Part shown: piece by piece, positions 12,164 through 34,272 of the stretch
Numbering within the stretch: the stretch's first letter is position 1
Layout: each line of letters begins with the position of its first letter
NCBI GenBank assembly: GCA_003162245.1
Contig: PMMM01000046.1
Coordinates: 5,761 to 42,768 of the forward strand
DNA from: Phycisphaerales bacterium
Lineage (GTDB): Bacteria > Planctomycetota > Phycisphaerae > UBA1845 > Fen-1342
Direction of reading: 5' to 3'
DNA: 37,008 nucleotides
Notes under the pieces: model-generated
Told to the model about the DNA's origin: nothing
The model's input: the letters and a program-made list of their open reading frames with translations, nothing else
Databases searched by the model: none
Translations under genes and position numbers: made by a program

Positions 12164-13315
12164 CTAGCCCTGGGCTTCATCCGCCAGTTTCTGTTCTTCG
12201 CCCTTCCCCGACTTGCCCAACATGCCGGTGACGGTCGTGCCGCGGAGCTTGGCTTCGATCTTCATCTGAAACTCCGCCGGCTGCCGGGCGCGCTCGACGC
12301 ACTCGTCGGCCTCGACGATCTCGTTGTCGTACAGCGACCAGAGGTGATCGTCGAGCAACTGCATGCCGTATTTCTTGCCGGTCTGAATCGCCGAGTCGAT
12401 CCGGTAGGTTTTGTTCTCGCGGATCAGGTTAGAGACGGCGGGCGTGACCACCAAAAACTCGTACGCCGCCACGCGGCCGCCGGTGCCTTTCTTGGGCAGC
12501 AGCGACTGCGACAGCACGGCCAGCAGGTTGGTGGAGAGCTGGACGCGGATCTGCTCCTGCTGGCTGACCGGGAACGCGTCGATGATACGGTTGATCGTGC
12601 CCTGGGCGCCGGTGGTGTGCAGCGTTGCGAACACCAAGTGGCCCGTCTCGGCCGCCCGGATCGCCGCCTCCATCGTCTCCAGGTCGCGCATTTCGCCCAC
12701 CAGGATCACGTCGGGGTCCATACGCAGCGAGCGCCGCAGCGCCTCGGCGAAGCTCGGCACGTCCACGCCCACCTCGCGCTGCGAGAAGCAGCACCTTTGG
12801 TGCGTGTGGTAGTACTCGATCGGGTCTTCGATGCTGATGATGTGGCGGTCGCCGACCTCGCGGTTAATGTAGTCCAGCATCGTCGCCAGCGTGGTCGTCT
12901 TGCCCGAGCCCGTCGGCCCGGTCACCAGGAACAGCCCGCGCGGCCGGCGGCACAGCGCCTTGACGATCTTCGGCAGGCCGATCTCGTCGAAGCTCAGGAT
13001 TTTCGACGGGATCAGGCGCAACACCATCGAGACGTTGCCCTTCTGCCGGAACACCGAGACACGGAAACGCCCCTTGTCGCCGAAAGCGAAGCCGTAGTCC
13101 GTCCCGCCTTCCTCCTGCAACTCCTGCTGGTTGCGCTCGGGCGTGACCGACTTCATCAGGGCCTGCGTGTCGTCGGGCTCCAGCGACTTGGTTTCGAGCG
13201 ACCGGAGCCGGCCGTCGATGCGCAGCACCGGCGGGCGCCCGACGTGCAGGTGAATGTCCGACCCGCCCACGCGGATCACGGTCTCCAGCAGACGGTCAAT
13301 ATGAACAGTGGCCAC
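12164..13315 (-). CDS. pilT: Type IV pilus retraction ATPase PilT
   Basis: A 383 aa secretion-type ATPase that depolymerises the pilus at the inner membrane, powering twitching. Seen: an N-terminal SDIHLHVGRPP stretch; the Walker A GPTGSGKTTT (133-142); the Asp box SIEDPIEY; SQREVG; the Walker B VILVGEMRD (203-211); and the His box ETGHLVFATLHT (223-234). The usual PilT C-terminal part is present, with an extra Lys/Gly/Glu-rich tail ending LADEAQG. It starts with GTG 13315 after gaggtg (13321-13326). It is separated from pilB by 20 bases, so they are one operon. A PilT paralogue is encoded at 33121-34272. Confidence 0.92.
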   Translation of the reverse strand: MATVHIDRLLETVIRVGGSDIHLHVGRPPVLRIDGRLRSLETKSLEPDDTQALMKSVTPERNQQELQEEGGTDYGFAFGDKGRFRVSVFRQKGNVSMVLRLIPSKILSFDEIGLPKIVKALCRRPRGLFLVTGPTGSGKTTTLATMLDYINREVGDRHIISIEDPIEYYHTHQRCCFSQREVGVDVPSFAEALRRSLRMDPDVILVGEMRDLETMEAAIRAAETGHLVFATLHTTGAQGTINRIIDAFPVSQQEQIRVQLSTNLLAVLSQSLLPKKGTGGRVAAYEFLVVTPAVSNLIRENKTYRIDSAIQTGKKYGMQLLDDHLWSLYDNEIVEADECVERARQPAEFQMKIEAKLRGTTVTGMLGKSGKGEEQKLADEAQG

Positions 13316-20911: not shown

Positions 20912-21706
20912 CTAAACCACCTTTGCCTCTTCCCGCAGCAGCCGCACCAGCTCTTTCGCCGCCGGCTCCGGATCACCGGGGATCATCTTGCCCGGCGGAC
21001 GCTCGGGCGGCGGCTGGAACGCGTGCATCTTCACTCCGCCCAGGTTCGCCGTCGCTGCGGCGAAACCCGCCACGTCCGCCGCCTTGAGCACTTTCACCGG
21101 CTTCTTCTTGGCCTTCATGAGGTTCGGCAGCGACGGGTAGCGCATCTCGCACAGCCCCTTGTCGGCCGTGATCAGCGCCGGCAGCGGCACCTGCACGACC
21201 TCTTCGGCTCCCTCGATCCGCCGCCGCGCCACGAACGACTTGCCGTCCGCCGCGATTTCGAGCTTCACCGTCGTGCCCACGTGCGGGATGTCGAGCAACT
21301 CCGCCAGCGCCGGTCCGAGCTGGCCGCTGTCGAGGTCGATCTCCTGCTTGCCGATCAGAATCAGGTCGTACCCGCCGTCCTTGACGACACCGGCCACGAG
21401 CGCGGCCGTCTGCAACTCGTCGAGCCGGTCGAACGCCTCGTCTTGCAAGTGGATGCCGTCGTCGGCCCCGACCGCCAGCGCCGTACGCAGCGCCTCGCCG
21501 GCCGTCGCGGGGCCGACGATCAGCGCGGTGACGCTCGCCACGTCCTTCCGCTTCTCCTTGAGCTGGACCGCCTGCTCGATGGCGAACTCGTCGAACGGGT
21601 TCACGACCATCTTCACACCGGCCCGCTCGATGTCCTGCCCGCCGGCCTGGATTTTGATGTTGGTGGTGGAGTCGGGGACCTGGCGAACGATGACTAGAAC
21701 CTTCAT
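20912..21706 (-). CDS. etfB: Electron transfer flavoprotein beta subunit
   Basis: A 264 aa partner of EtfA that binds AMP structurally. Seen: MKVLVIVRQVPD at the N-terminus; VNPFDEFAIEQAVQLKE; the GADDGIHL stretch; the DLILIGKQEIDLDSGQLGP segment; and the ETF-beta signature from ARRRIEGAEE through LCEMRYPSLPNLMKAKKKP. ATG 21706 follows ggagg at 6 bases. It is the first gene of the etfBA unit, which may read on into the membrane protein gene. Confidence 0.95.
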   Translation of the reverse strand: MKVLVIVRQVPDSTTNIKIQAGGQDIERAGVKMVVNPFDEFAIEQAVQLKEKRKDVASVTALIVGPATAGEALRTALAVGADDGIHLQDEAFDRLDELQTAALVAGVVKDGGYDLILIGKQEIDLDSGQLGPALAELLDIPHVGTTVKLEIAADGKSFVARRRIEGAEEVVQVPLPALITADKGLCEMRYPSLPNLMKAKKKPVKVLKAADVAGFAAATANLGGVKMHAFQPPPERPPGKMIPGDPEPAAKELVRLLREEAKVV

Positions 21707-21840
21707 GTGCGCCTCCGCGACACGTCCGCATCGGGGTCTAATGCTTCGCGCGGCATGATAGCGGCCCGCTACAGCCCTGCAAAGCGCCGCCCCACCGCGT
21801 TCGCCGCTCGGATTGCGCGCCGGCGTCTGGCGCGCTGCCC

Positions 21841-22275
21841 TCAGCGCCCGGCCTTCTGCTTAAACGGCAGTCGCATGCTGCAGTCGACGAGCTTGGTGAC
21901 CTTGCGCGGAAAGAAGCCCTCCTCGCCTGTTACCGGTATCGTGAACTCGAGCTGAAGCTCGTCGCCGTTCAGCGTGCACTTCCAGTTCACGCTGAGCGAG
22001 CCACTTGAAAAATCGCCCGAAAACAACGGAGGCGGAGGGAACCAAGGCAGCCCGTTCGGCGGGGGCGGATTCCGCAGGTTCAGATGGATAGCCGGCTCGA
22101 CCATCTCGGACGCCCATTCCGCCAGCCAATTCCGCACTTCAGGAGGCGGGAGAGGGCCAACGCGCGGCGGAGCGAAACCAGATCCGTGGCAAATCGGGCA
22201 ATCGTCGTCAAAAAGCTCGCATTCACCGAAGCATTTCCAGCACTCTGGCAGATCGTCTTCATTTTCCTCAGGCAT
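21841..22275 (-). CDS. Small cysteine-rich protein, putative zinc ribbon
   Basis: A 144 aa protein not matching a family I know. The N-terminus holds CWKC (Cys12, Cys15) and CPICHGSGF (Cys26, Cys29), a C-x2-C-x10-C-x2-C zinc-ribbon layout whose second half resembles a DnaJ-type CxxCxGxG. A Pro-rich linker follows (66-83), then a beta-strand-rich C-terminal domain. ATG 22275 is chosen because ggag precedes it by 6 bases; a GTG at 22287 would add four residues. It lies 31 bases downstream of the nuclease-like gene, and both are less GC-rich than their neighbours. The link to the nuclease-like protein is inferred from context only. Confidence 0.65.
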   Translation of the reverse strand: MPEENEDDLPECWKCFGECELFDDDCPICHGSGFAPPRVGPLPPPEVRNWLAEWASEMVEPAIHLNLRNPPPPNGLPWFPPPPLFSGDFSSGSLSVNWKCTLNGDELQLEFTIPVTGEEGFFPRKVTKLVDCSMRLPFKQKAGR

Positions 22276-22306
22276 GGCCGGCTCCACTCCCGACGTTTCC
22301 GCGACG

Positions 22307-23092
22307 TCATTTCTCTCGCGTCGCTGTGCTTTCCGAGTATTGGCGCATCAGGCTCCCCAGGTGAACCACCGACTCCGTAGCCCATGCGACATATTCCCGG
22401 ACGTGCTTCAGAGAGACGACATCGATGAGCAACTGGCGGCGGCCCGCACTCCAATTCACCCTGCCCCACGCCGCCTCCTTAACGATCAGATCACCCGCGG
22501 CAGGGTCGTATGATGCGTCAAATAGCTGGCCATCTACGACGACAAGCGGCAAGAATAGCACGTGAGCATCGGCACCGCGCATATTGAGTTCGTCAAAAAC
22601 GTCAGCGTAGCTGAACGTCACGTCGGTCAGCTTCATCATGGTCGCGTAGGCGCGATCATCGTTCTTCCCCTTCTTCAGGGCTTCGATCGCGCTATGCGCA
22701 GCTCGCTCACCGCTCCGAAAATGGAAGTTGGATTCGAGCGATTCCAGCACACCCCGCGCCGCGCCCATCCCGGTCAGCGTCTTCGTCCTTGCCGCGAGCA
22801 GAGAAGAAAACAACGCGTCGGTCCGTTGCTCGCCATAAAGCAATATCCAAGGAAATCGGAGGTACTTGCACTCACACATAATCACCACTCGGCCGGACGT
22901 GCAAGCCGTGTGCATCACGCGAAGATCGACCTCGCGTTTGTCCCCCAGTTCGGGCCCGATGCAGGCCCCCATCGTTATGCTCAGCTCGGGGCTTGAGTTC
23001 TGAAAAGCGTGCGCGACTTCAAACTCAACCCGATACCCCTCCTTCTTTAGCCAACATGTGACCTCGTCAGCAGTGTGTTCAGGAGCTGGCAT
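22307..23092 (-). CDS. PD-(D/E)XK nuclease-like protein
   Basis: A 261 aa protein. The first ~90 residues fit the restriction-endonuclease-like fold: a helix (about 7-18) with GYRVEFE strand, then KREVDLRV with Asp56, then RVVIMCECKY with Glu74-x-Lys76, the D...ExK catalytic pattern. Such folds occur in restriction, repair and defence nucleases, and sometimes in non-cleaving relatives. The rest (100-261) is a mixed helix/strand region without recognised motifs. ATG 23092 follows gaggtg. Composition is markedly less GC-rich than the core genes, which suggests acquisition by transfer. It is paired with the Cys-rich small protein downstream and diverges from metF. Confidence 0.6.
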   Translation of the reverse strand: MPAPEHTADEVTCWLKKEGYRVEFEVAHAFQNSSPELSITMGACIGPELGDKREVDLRVMHTACTSGRVVIMCECKYLRFPWILLYGEQRTDALFSSLLAARTKTLTGMGAARGVLESLESNFHFRSGERAAHSAIEALKKGKNDDRAYATMMKLTDVTFSYADVFDELNMRGADAHVLFLPLVVVDGQLFDASYDPAAGDLIVKEAAWGRVNWSAGRRQLLIDVVSLKHVREYVAWATESVVHLGSLMRQYSESTATREK

Positions 23093-23227
23093 TCAGCACC
23101 TCGGTCTGGGCGCCCGACGAATCAACGCGCGGGCCTGCATTTGCCGCAGTATACTCCGCCGCGCGCGGCCAGCCAGTTCGCGGCAGGAGCAGTTGCCGCC
23201 GATTTGCGCTCACGCTAAAAGACCCCT

Positions 23228-24124
23228 ATGCGTATCCGCGAGTTGCTCACCACCGGCCGCCCCAGCTTCTCCTTCGAGTTCTTTCCGCCCCAGGACGAGG
23301 CCGGGTTCGCCCAACTGCGGGAAACCCTCGCTTCCTTGCGCGAGCTCCAGCCCACCTACGTTTCCGTCACGTATGGCACCGGCGGCAGCACCCGCCAGCG
23401 GACCATCGCGCTGGTCACCAGCCTGCGGGCCCAGTACGGCCTCGAGGCCATGGCCCACCTGACCTGCGCCGGCGCGTCCCGCGCTGAAATCCAGACCGTT
23501 CTGGAAAGCCTGCAGGCGGCGGGCGTGGAGAACCTTCTGGCCCTGCGCGGCGATCCGCCCGCGGACCAGGCCACCTTCATCCCGCAGCCCGACGGTTTTG
23601 CCCACGCCAGCGACCTGGCCGCCTTCGCGAAACAGCAGTTCCGCTTCTGCATCGGCGGCGCCTGTTACCCCGAGAGGCACGTCGAGGCCCCGAGCTTCGA
23701 GGTCGACCTGCAGAACCTGCAACGCAAGGTCGAGGCCGGCTGCGAGTACCTGATTACTCAGCTCTTCTTCGACAACCAGCGCTACTTCGACTTTGTCGCG
23801 CGGGCCCGCGCGGCCGGCATCGGCGTCCCCATCATTCCCGGCATCATGCCCATCACCAGCGTCCGGCAGGTCGAACGGTTCACGAAGCTATGCGGTGCAA
23901 CGCTCCCCGAGCCCCTGCTGAGCGAGCTGCAGCGCGTCCGCGACGACCACCACGCCGTCCTGTCGCTCGGCGTGGCCCAGGCGACCGCGCAGTGCCTCGA
24001 GCTGCTGCACCGCGGGGCGCCGGGCATTCACTTCTATACGCTCAACAAGTCGCCCGCGACGCGCACCATCCTGACGGCCCTACGTACCGGTTATCCGCCC
24101 GCCCGCTACCCCGCCGGCCGCTGA
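23228..24124 (+). CDS. metF: Methylenetetrahydrofolate reductase
   Basis: A 298 aa cytosolic FAD enzyme that reduces 5,10-methylene-THF to 5-methyl-THF, the methyl donor for methionine synthesis. Seen: SFEFFPP with the catalytic glutamate (Glu17); YVSVTYGTGGS; the HLTCAG stretch; LALRGDPP with the folate-binding Asp; and the central ITQLFFDN and PGIMPI motifs, all characteristic of MetF. The length is normal for the bacterial form. ATG 23228 lies after a short divergent region with the nuclease-like gene; no recognisable SAM riboswitch is seen in 23093-23227. Confidence 0.95.
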   Translation: MRIRELLTTGRPSFSFEFFPPQDEAGFAQLRETLASLRELQPTYVSVTYGTGGSTRQRTIALVTSLRAQYGLEAMAHLTCAGASRAEIQTVLESLQAAGVENLLALRGDPPADQATFIPQPDGFAHASDLAAFAKQQFRFCIGGACYPERHVEAPSFEVDLQNLQRKVEAGCEYLITQLFFDNQRYFDFVARARAAGIGVPIIPGIMPITSVRQVERFTKLCGATLPEPLLSELQRVRDDHHAVLSLGVAQATAQCLELLHRGAPGIHFYTLNKSPATRTILTALRTGYPPARYPAGR

Positions 24125-24220: not shown

Positions 24221-24865
24221 TTACGGCTTCTTGGGCTCTTCCTTCTTCGGCTCTTCTTTCTTGGGCTCTTCCTTCTTGATCTCGGGCTTCTTCTCGGCCA
24301 CCTTCTCCGGAATGATCACGCCGTCGATCTCGTGGAGCACGCCGTTCTTGGCGGCGATGTCGGCCTTGGTGACGGCAGTCTTGTCATCGAGAATGAGTTT
24401 GCCGTCCTTGAACGCGACCTTGATGTCGCCGAACCAGGCCTTGAGGGGCTCCTTGGCCTTCTCGAGGTCGGCCTTCAGCATCTTGCCCTTGACGATGTGG
24501 TTCTTGAGCACGTCGGTGAGCTTGGCCTTGTTCTCCGGCTTCTTCATCTCATCGAGGTCTTTCCAGGCCTTGAAGGCGGCGTCCGTCGGCGCGAAAACGG
24601 TGAACGCGCCCGGGCTCTGGAGGTCTTTCTCCAGGTCGGCCAGCTTGACGAGCTCCAAGAAGGTGGTGAACTTGAGTTCCTTCGCCATCGCGAGGATGTC
24701 TTTGGCCTCTTCCTTCTTGATCTCTTCCTTCTTGGCCTCTTCCTTCTTCACTTCCGGCTTGGCCTCGGCCTTCTTCGGCGGCTCCTGGGCTAGGGCCCAG
24801 CTTCCGAAGGCCAGCGCGACAACAGGGATCACCACACCCACCAACCGCAGCATTCCGTTCGACAT
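24221..24865 (-). CDS. Secreted FAS1 (fasciclin) domain protein with Lys/Glu repeats
   Basis: A 214 aa protein. The signal peptide covers about 1-26 and ends ...SWALA. A single FAS1 domain occupies about 55-187, with FTVFAPTDAAF (88-98), LKNHIVKGK (120-128) and NGVLHEIDGVI near its end. FAS1 proteins act in cell-surface adhesion. The domain is framed by charged repeats: KKEEAKKEEIKKEEAK before it and repeats of KKEEP after it, which the DNA encodes as near-tandem units. ATG 24865 is preferred over 24901 because aggagag precedes it and the signal peptide then begins normally. Confidence 0.88.
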   Translation of the reverse strand: MSNGMLRLVGVVIPVVALAFGSWALAQEPPKKAEAKPEVKKEEAKKEEIKKEEAKDILAMAKELKFTTFLELVKLADLEKDLQSPGAFTVFAPTDAAFKAWKDLDEMKKPENKAKLTDVLKNHIVKGKMLKADLEKAKEPLKAWFGDIKVAFKDGKLILDDKTAVTKADIAAKNGVLHEIDGVIIPEKVAEKKPEIKKEEPKKEEPKKEEPKKP

Positions 24866-25006
24866 CCGAATCTCTCCTTGCCACTGCTTTAAGGCGACCA
24901 CACGCCCGGGTGGTCTACACTGACCGCACCGTCCGCCTTGAAAGCGAAGCCACGTATGTTAACGATGCGCCGGACGAACGCAAGGGGGCGGCAATTCACG
25001 AGCACG

Positions 25007-33120: not shown

Positions 33121-34272
33121 CTAGGTTCTCGCCTCCTGCACCCGCTGCATCTCGTCCACGAACGCGCTGGCGTGGTTCGCCCACTTCTCCGCCTCGAGCG
33201 GGGCCACCGTGCCGCTCGCCACGAGCAGCGCCAGCGAGCGCTCGAGCGTGATCATGCGCTCCTCCGGGACGTCGCGCGTGCGGCTCTGGAGGATTGAGTA
33301 GATCTGCTCCACCTTGGCCAGCCGGATCAGGTTCGCCGTCGCGTAGGTGTTGTTGAGAATCTCCATCGCGACGACGCGGCCCTTGCCGTCCTGCCGCGGA
33401 ATCAGCTTCTGGCACAGGATGTAGCTCAGGCCCAGCGAGAGCTGGCTCGCCACCTCGTCCTGCCGGCTGGGCGGGAACATGTCGAGCACGCGCGTGACGG
33501 TGCCACGGACGTCGCGCGTGTGCAGCGTCGAGAACACCAGGTGCCCGGTCTCCGCCGCCGTCAGCGTCCAACTCGTCGAGTCGCGGTCGCGCATCTCGCC
33601 CACGAAGATCACGTCCGGGTCCTCGCGCAGACAGTCCCGCAGCCCGCGCTCGTAGCTCGGCACGTCGCGCCCCACCTCGCGCTGTGAGACCATCGCCGCC
33701 TTGCTCGCCAGCCGGTATTCGATCGGGTCTTCCAGCGTGATGATCCGGCACGGCCGCGTTTCCGCGATCCGGCGGATCAAAGACGCGATGGTCGTGGACT
33801 TGCCGGCCCCGGTGATGCCGGTCACGAGGACCAGCCCGTGCTGCCGGCCGACGATGTCGTGCCAGGCCGCGTTGGGGAACCCGACTTCCTCGACCGGGGG
33901 CGGGTCGTCCTCCAGCGCCCGGATCGCCACTGCCAGCCCGTCGTTGTCGAAGAACGCGTTCAGGCGGAACTGCATCGTCTCGGTAATGTACGAGCCGTCG
34001 ACCGAGCGGCCCTCCTCCAGCCGCTGCCAGTTCTCTTCGCCCAGGATGCTCTGCACCAGGGCCTGCACCGTCGCGTTGTCCAGCGCCGCGCCCTTCAGCC
34101 GCTGCAGGCTCCCGTCCACGCGGTAGATCGGCGGACAACCGACCTTCAGGTGCAGGTCCGACACGCGCATCGAGCCGTGCTTGACGAAGTACTCCAGCAG
34201 GTCCTTCATGCTCAGCTTGCGCTCGGCGCTGAACGCATACACCGGCGTGTCCACCGAGAGAACGTCGCTCAT
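33121..34272 (-). CDS. PilT-like ATPase, second copy
   Basis: A 383 aa secretion-type ATPase. Compared with the pilT product it has a longer N-terminus (MSDVLSVDTPVYAFSAERKL) and a variant Walker A, GITGAGKSTT (152-161), with an Asp box LEDPIEY, SQREVG, Walker B VIFVGEMRD (221-229) and His box ETGHLVFSTLHTRD. It is probably a PilU-type paralogue or a motor for a different pilus-like machine. ATG 34272 has an ideal aggagg. The start overlaps the end of the small zinc-ribbon membrane protein gene by 4 bases (atga), so the two are translationally coupled. Confidence 0.85.
   Translation of the reverse strand: MSDVLSVDTPVYAFSAERKLSMKDLLEYFVKHGSMRVSDLHLKVGCPPIYRVDGSLQRLKGAALDNATVQALVQSILGEENWQRLEEGRSVDGSYITETMQFRLNAFFDNDGLAVAIRALEDDPPPVEEVGFPNAAWHDIVGRQHGLVLVTGITGAGKSTTIASLIRRIAETRPCRIITLEDPIEYRLASKAAMVSQREVGRDVPSYERGLRDCLREDPDVIFVGEMRDRDSTSWTLTAAETGHLVFSTLHTRDVRGTVTRVLDMFPPSRQDEVASQLSLGLSYILCQKLIPRQDGKGRVVAMEILNNTYATANLIRLAKVEQIYSILQSRTRDVPEERMITLERSLALLVASGTVAPLEAEKWANHASAFVDEMQRVQEART

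Follow-up and report, generated by a model that had tools for sequence, protein, structure and literature searches.

P0001, a gene in a 37,008-nucleotide window from a Phycisphaerales bacterium (the whole stretch of DNA analysed here), encodes a protein that very probably adopts the PD-(D/E)XK nuclease fold, as judged from its predicted structure and conserved residues. It represents a new family within this already known kind, namely small standalone nucleases, so far uncatalogued, that occur on phages, on a plasmid and at defence-like loci. Together with its small neighbour P0002, the gene was gained horizontally as an insertion between etfB and metF. We see about an even chance that P0001 is a standalone, mobile PD-(D/E)XK nuclease likely acting as a single-gene defence against phages or mobile DNA. 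The locus contains the following features:

20912-21706, minus strand: etfB, flanking the island on the P0002 side
21791-23227, no strand assigned: insert between the divergently oriented etfB and metF genes, as aligned to the empty site of genome G390
21841-22275, minus strand: P0002, an orphan ORF of 144 aa from an ATG, with a Cys-rich N-terminus
22177-22242, minus strand: Cys motif of P0002, residues 12-33, CWKCFGECELFDDDCPICHGSG, a probable zinc site of the half-DnaJ / anti-TRAP type
22307-23092, minus strand: P0001, an ORF of 261 aa with an ATG start; predicted standalone PD-(D/E)XK nuclease family protein (alignment A6, AlphaFold2, structure matches)
22865-22927, minus strand: codons of the predicted active-site residues Asp56, Glu74 and Lys76, from conservation in A6
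23228-24124, plus strand: metF, flanking the island on the P0001 side

The labels etfB and metF follow an earlier sequence-only reading of this DNA and the appearance of the two sequences. P0002 lies downstream of P0001 on the same strand, and the gap of 31 bp indicates that the two genes are probably co-transcribed; an alternative upstream start of P0002, a GTG at 22287, would extend it to 148 aa. The GC content is 0.579 in P0001 and 0.600 in P0002 compared to 0.674 in etfB and 0.687 in metF, and GC3 is 0.68 and 0.70, respectively, compared to 0.89-0.91 in the two flanking genes. The two adjacent ORFs described in the sequence-only reading are present, on the minus strand, and both are lower in GC than etfB and metF (58-60% versus 67-69%). 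The coding order GC3 > GC1 > GC2 is kept in the frames of P0001 and P0002, and alternative ORFs on the opposite strand or in shifted frames across the island were discarded, as their coding signature was weak or absent. The remaining genes of the window look like housekeeping genes; no tRNA was found in the window and no CRISPR genes were noticed there. A second local GC dip, at 24221-24901, coincides with the gene of a secreted, fasciclin-like protein whose ends are rich in Lys and Glu. Since GC3 there is at the native level (0.87), the dip reflects composition and does not mark another island.

The island status of the gene pair, also proposed earlier, is supported by relatives, both within the genus and in other genera of the family, in which this site is empty. 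In the same-genus genome G390, whose metF is 92% identical at the DNA level to that of the window, etfB and metF are adjacent (L043, 3837-3927). Homology to G390 ends at window position 21790 and restarts at approximately 23226-23228, so that ~1.44 kb in the window replaces ~90 bp of G390, with bounds slightly exceeding the two ORFs. The divergent etfB-metF arrangement is found in nine genomes of the family (G390 and eight more), with 142-263 bp between the starts as opposed to 1521 bp in the window. Neither a target-site duplication nor terminal inverted repeats nor att-like boundary repeats were detected at the insertion edges, and no integrase or recombinase was found at this insertion. Taken together, the segment carrying P0001 and P0002 is an insertion that was horizontally gained.

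To assess the P0001 fold and active site, we used alignment A6, which holds 14 members with 15-28% identity to P0001. The D...E-x-K pattern noticed in the sequence alone is indeed located at Asp56, Glu74 and Lys76: D56 and E74 are present in all 14 members and K76 in 13, with an Arg in the remaining one. Only R53, D56, E74 and P182 are fully invariant; C75 is conserved in 13/14 members and E23 of the first core helix in 12/14, which yields the family motif R-x-x-D ... E-C-K. An AlphaFold2 model, computed from an alignment of only 6 sequences, reached a fair quality (pLDDT 77, pTM 0.81), with residues 95-106 poorly defined. It comprises a helix (residues 21-33) followed by the strands 38-45, 53-64 (with D56) and 67-77 (with E74 and K76), and thereby places the catalytic residues on consecutive strands. 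The alpha-beta-beta-beta-alpha-beta core of PD-(D/E)XK proteins could be traced in the model, with these residues on the central strands.

A Foldseek search of the PDB with this model gave weak matches (best E 0.086), and upon structural re-alignment of the candidates nearly all top rows were PD-(D/E)XK domains. The highest Z-scores were obtained for VC1899 (1xmx; 9.6, r.m.s.d. 2.9 over 126 residues) and Cdn1 (9.6), followed by McrC (8.8), Can2 (8.3), XisH (7.2), NucC (7.2), SduA (6.3) and Hjc (6.2). For Can2 and VC1899, the nuclease domain has been described as PD-D/ExK (PMC7969007). While the Foldseek result alone is weak, the Z-scores and the conserved residues taken together make the assignment firm. 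The proposal that P0001 is a PD-(D/E)XK protein is thus upheld by the conservation of D, E and K across the 14 members and by the structure search with the predicted model. Judging from fold and residues, P0001 would be an active nuclease.

Sequence searches with P0001 returned no match in Pfam, PADLOC (up to E 10), PHROGs or the PDB. An NCBIfam match to nicotinate phosphoribosyltransferase was spurious, with 13 bits compared to the 503 needed. Direct scans of genome contigs and viral contigs also yielded nothing, and relatives were obtained only with profiles. Remote homologues were gathered by whole-genome searches, starting with the protein query and continuing with growing alignments; one of these, A8, was too diverse and was set aside for scanning. 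Two first-round matches (L003 and L006) were dropped, as no full-length relative was visible there. Through this approach, homologues of 260-300 aa were found in genomes of the same phylum, in genome contigs labelled Planctomycetota / Phycisphaerae (L061-L063), in viral contigs (L064 and L065) and on a Paracoccus plasmid. Two of the loci reached by the genome searches recur among these contigs as L062 and L063.

The family is present in 9 of the 392 sampled phylum genomes (~2%), in 4 of 150 class genomes and in 2 of 27 family-level genomes, where it occupies different loci in the two. No close homologue was found in the own genome or genus. Two clear relatives were detected among 2.9 million viral contigs and none in the 50,697 phage records searched. 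Pfam, NCBIfam, PADLOC and PHROGs contain no model of the family, and we did not find it described in the open-licence literature. Thus, the P0001 family is uncatalogued, sparse and patchy, and it spans at least Planctomycetota and, by the Paracoccus plasmid, Alphaproteobacteria.

We then compared P0001 with known systems. Shedu is a one-gene anti-phage defence, and its protein SduA (DUF4263) resembles P0001 in being a standalone PD-(D/E)XK accessory gene product whose nuclease domain overlaps (Z 6.3 for E. coli SduA). However, the P0001 family is smaller, and SduA is no closer to it than several other PD-(D/E)XK groups. None of the 14 members matched the SduA models included in the PADLOC library (up to E 0.1), so by sequence model P0001 is not Shedu. 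The best match to the core is the nuclease domain of Card1/Can2/VC1899 (DUF1887) and Cdn1, with Z-scores of 8.3-9.6 over 126-136 residues and an r.m.s.d. of 2.6-3.3. In those proteins the match is confined to the C-terminal part, whereas in our model it spans residues 13-245 of the 261 and therefore leaves no room for a CARF domain. With no such room and no Pfam match, P0001 is not a CARF nuclease. McrC shares the PD-(D/E)XK core over 138 residues, but P0001 lacks the N-terminal McrC region and has no McrB GTPase neighbour; its neighbours are etfB, metF and P0002, which places it outside McrBC. XisH (PF08814) is likewise a small protein with a PD-(D/E)XK-like fold, and it is tied to element excision; it matches the model with a Z-score of 7.2, and 1 of 14 members shows a very weak sequence match to PF08814 (E 0.21) that is not significant. 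P0001 is about twice as long, and no XisI/XisF neighbour was noticed.

The genomic settings of the homologues are diverse. For these loci, gene calls were mechanical, and phage genes (integrase, terminase etc.) were recognised by eye in the translations. In the phage contig L065, the homologue lies between integrase and lysis/terminase genes, in L064 it immediately follows a large terminase gene, and in L021 it is beside a terminase. On the Paracoccus plasmid (L072), genes for a Y-family polymerase and an S24 peptidase are close by. Y-family DNA polymerase genes are situated within a few kb of homologues at L072:9983-11655 and at L056:5538-6770, the latter recognised by eye. Other homologues have candidate defence or conflict genes close by. 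In L020 (genome G048), the neighbour is an ABC-3C pair, HNH-CTD10 and DUF2326 at L020:5782-8530, which PADLOC lists as candidate defence PDC-M68 (PDC-M68A/B). In L059 (G062), the homologue follows a HEPN_Swt1 / PDC-M34B gene, and its stop is overlapped by 4 bp by the start of a 502 aa protein (L059:9058-10566) that has no match in Pfam or PADLOC. In L060 (G045), the homologue precedes an Imm50 gene, ~80 bp downstream, and a HEPN_RiboL-PSP gene, and these together form an immunity/conflict-type cluster (L060:6700-8736). In L057, an HNH-like gene is nearby. In L061, an ORF with a zinc-ribbon repeat (Zn_ribbon_8, E 3e-9; L061:8922-9247) lies ~150 bp downstream and is cut by the contig end; it is a second Cys-rich neighbour, unrelated to P0002.

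The homologues of L062 and L063 are, like P0001 itself, alone among housekeeping genes, L022 is apparently alone, and the majority of homologues are found outside recognisable phages. Read as a plain list of loci, these settings suggest accessory cargo leaning towards defence and mobile elements. The link to defence, conflict or mobile elements drawn in the sequence-only reading survives in part: there are homologues in phages or next to candidate defence genes, but also ones that stand alone, and the link is suggestive only.

Turning to P0002, its N-terminus reads CWKC-x3-C-x6-CPICHGSG (CWKCFGEC..6..CPICHGSG). The motif had been taken for a zinc ribbon; it looks more like one half of a DnaJ CXXCXGXG domain, or like anti-TRAP, with which it shares the CxxC and CPICHGSG spacing and a probable zinc site. 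The best scores were an E of 0.055 for PF00684 (14.2 bits compared to a cut-off of 32.7), covering two CxxC units of the four CXXCXGXG repeats, and an E of 0.01 for RtpA (15.9 compared to 65). P0002 is therefore not a DnaJ CXXCXGXG domain, as it scores below the Pfam cut-off and carries half the repeat set; its other 110 residues match nothing. A single-sequence structure model of P0002 had a pLDDT of 38.5, too low to bear out the beta-rich domain proposed for it in the sequence-only reading. No clear relatives were found in 294 phylum genomes, 198 class genomes, plasmids or phages, and the genome matches L008-L013, L070 and L071 were dismissed as chance, being short and in many cases running across stop codons. 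A small viral protein (L069:1687-2061) combines CPKCKGRG...CPICHGSG with a hydrophobic segment, similar to the P0002 N-terminus; we did not accept it as a relative, since mainly the zinc motif is in common.

None of the examined P0001 homologues has a P0002 relative beside it (tblastn best E 0.46; motif scan). Within this small and remote sample, the pair is thus not a conserved two-gene system. The two genes were never neighbours at the other loci sampled, which is the very observation that the sequence-only reading had named as speaking against its two-gene system of nuclease and partner. Judging from the sequence comparisons, P0002 is an orphan, probably either a passenger that was inserted along with P0001 or an accessory peculiar to this locus that carries a zinc site, and not a defining part of the system.

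From the gene, its insertion, its patchy distribution, its fold class and its conserved catalytic residues, we infer cleavage, target choice and a defence role. The P0001 family would move between genomes as accessory cargo in prophages, plasmids and small genomic inserts. In the protein, Asp56 and Glu74 would bind a divalent metal and Lys76 would assist, so that the core could cut or nick nucleic acid in a metal-dependent manner. Towards the C-terminus, a beta-rich region and a long helix would probably serve dimerisation and/or the sensing of a substrate or trigger. P0001 would then most likely act self-contained against invading nucleic acid in a Shedu-like mode. We hold such a defence role to be evenly balanced: the copies of L062, L063 and the window, alone among housekeeping genes, argue against a single-gene defence, and a nuclease carried by a phage may work for that phage and not for its host. 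Should restriction of phages prove true, the family would add another one-gene defence that is missed by present defence finders; otherwise, P0001 is an ordinary accessory gene.

Service to the carrier is the essence of a different explanation, in which P0001 is a resolvase- or XisH-like helper for the recombination, repair or packaging of a mobile element and was stranded here. The structural likeness to XisH and Hjc, the terminase genes adjoining the homologues in L064 and L021, the phage contig L065 and the Y-family polymerases of L072 and L056 would fit such a helper. Nevertheless, we consider it rather unlikely, as most homologues lie outside recognisable phages, the rarity in viral contigs and absence from the phage records searched is unlike a core phage function, and this insertion has no recombinase or att-like repeats. 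P0002 could also be devoted to P0001 as its zinc-dependent regulator, its immunity protein or its sensor, which would make the pair a toxin-antitoxin or two-component defence module. The short distance on one strand and the joint insertion agree with this, and the zinc-ribbon ORF of L061 and Imm50 of L060 could mean that different small partners fill one role. However, P0002 has no relative beside any other homologue and no clear one in the genomes, plasmids and phages searched, and several homologues lack any small partner nearby, which renders a two-gene module unlikely. A related idea, that lineages recruit differing small zinc-binding or immunity-like partners (P0002, the L061 zinc-ribbon repeat, L060 Imm50) that check or direct a new single-gene nuclease defence, appears distinctly unlikely. 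Finally, P0001 might be decaying or neutral cargo with no present function, as its solo setting and the lack of a close homologue in genome and genus would allow; the open frame of 261 codons, the intact catalytic residues and the coding-like codon usage make this very unlikely.

Elsewhere in the window, two ORFs of 383 aa each (12164-13315 and 33121-34272) have similar-looking N-termini (GGSDIHLHVGRPP and RVSDLHLKVGCPP, respectively) and probably encode two PilT-like ATPases.
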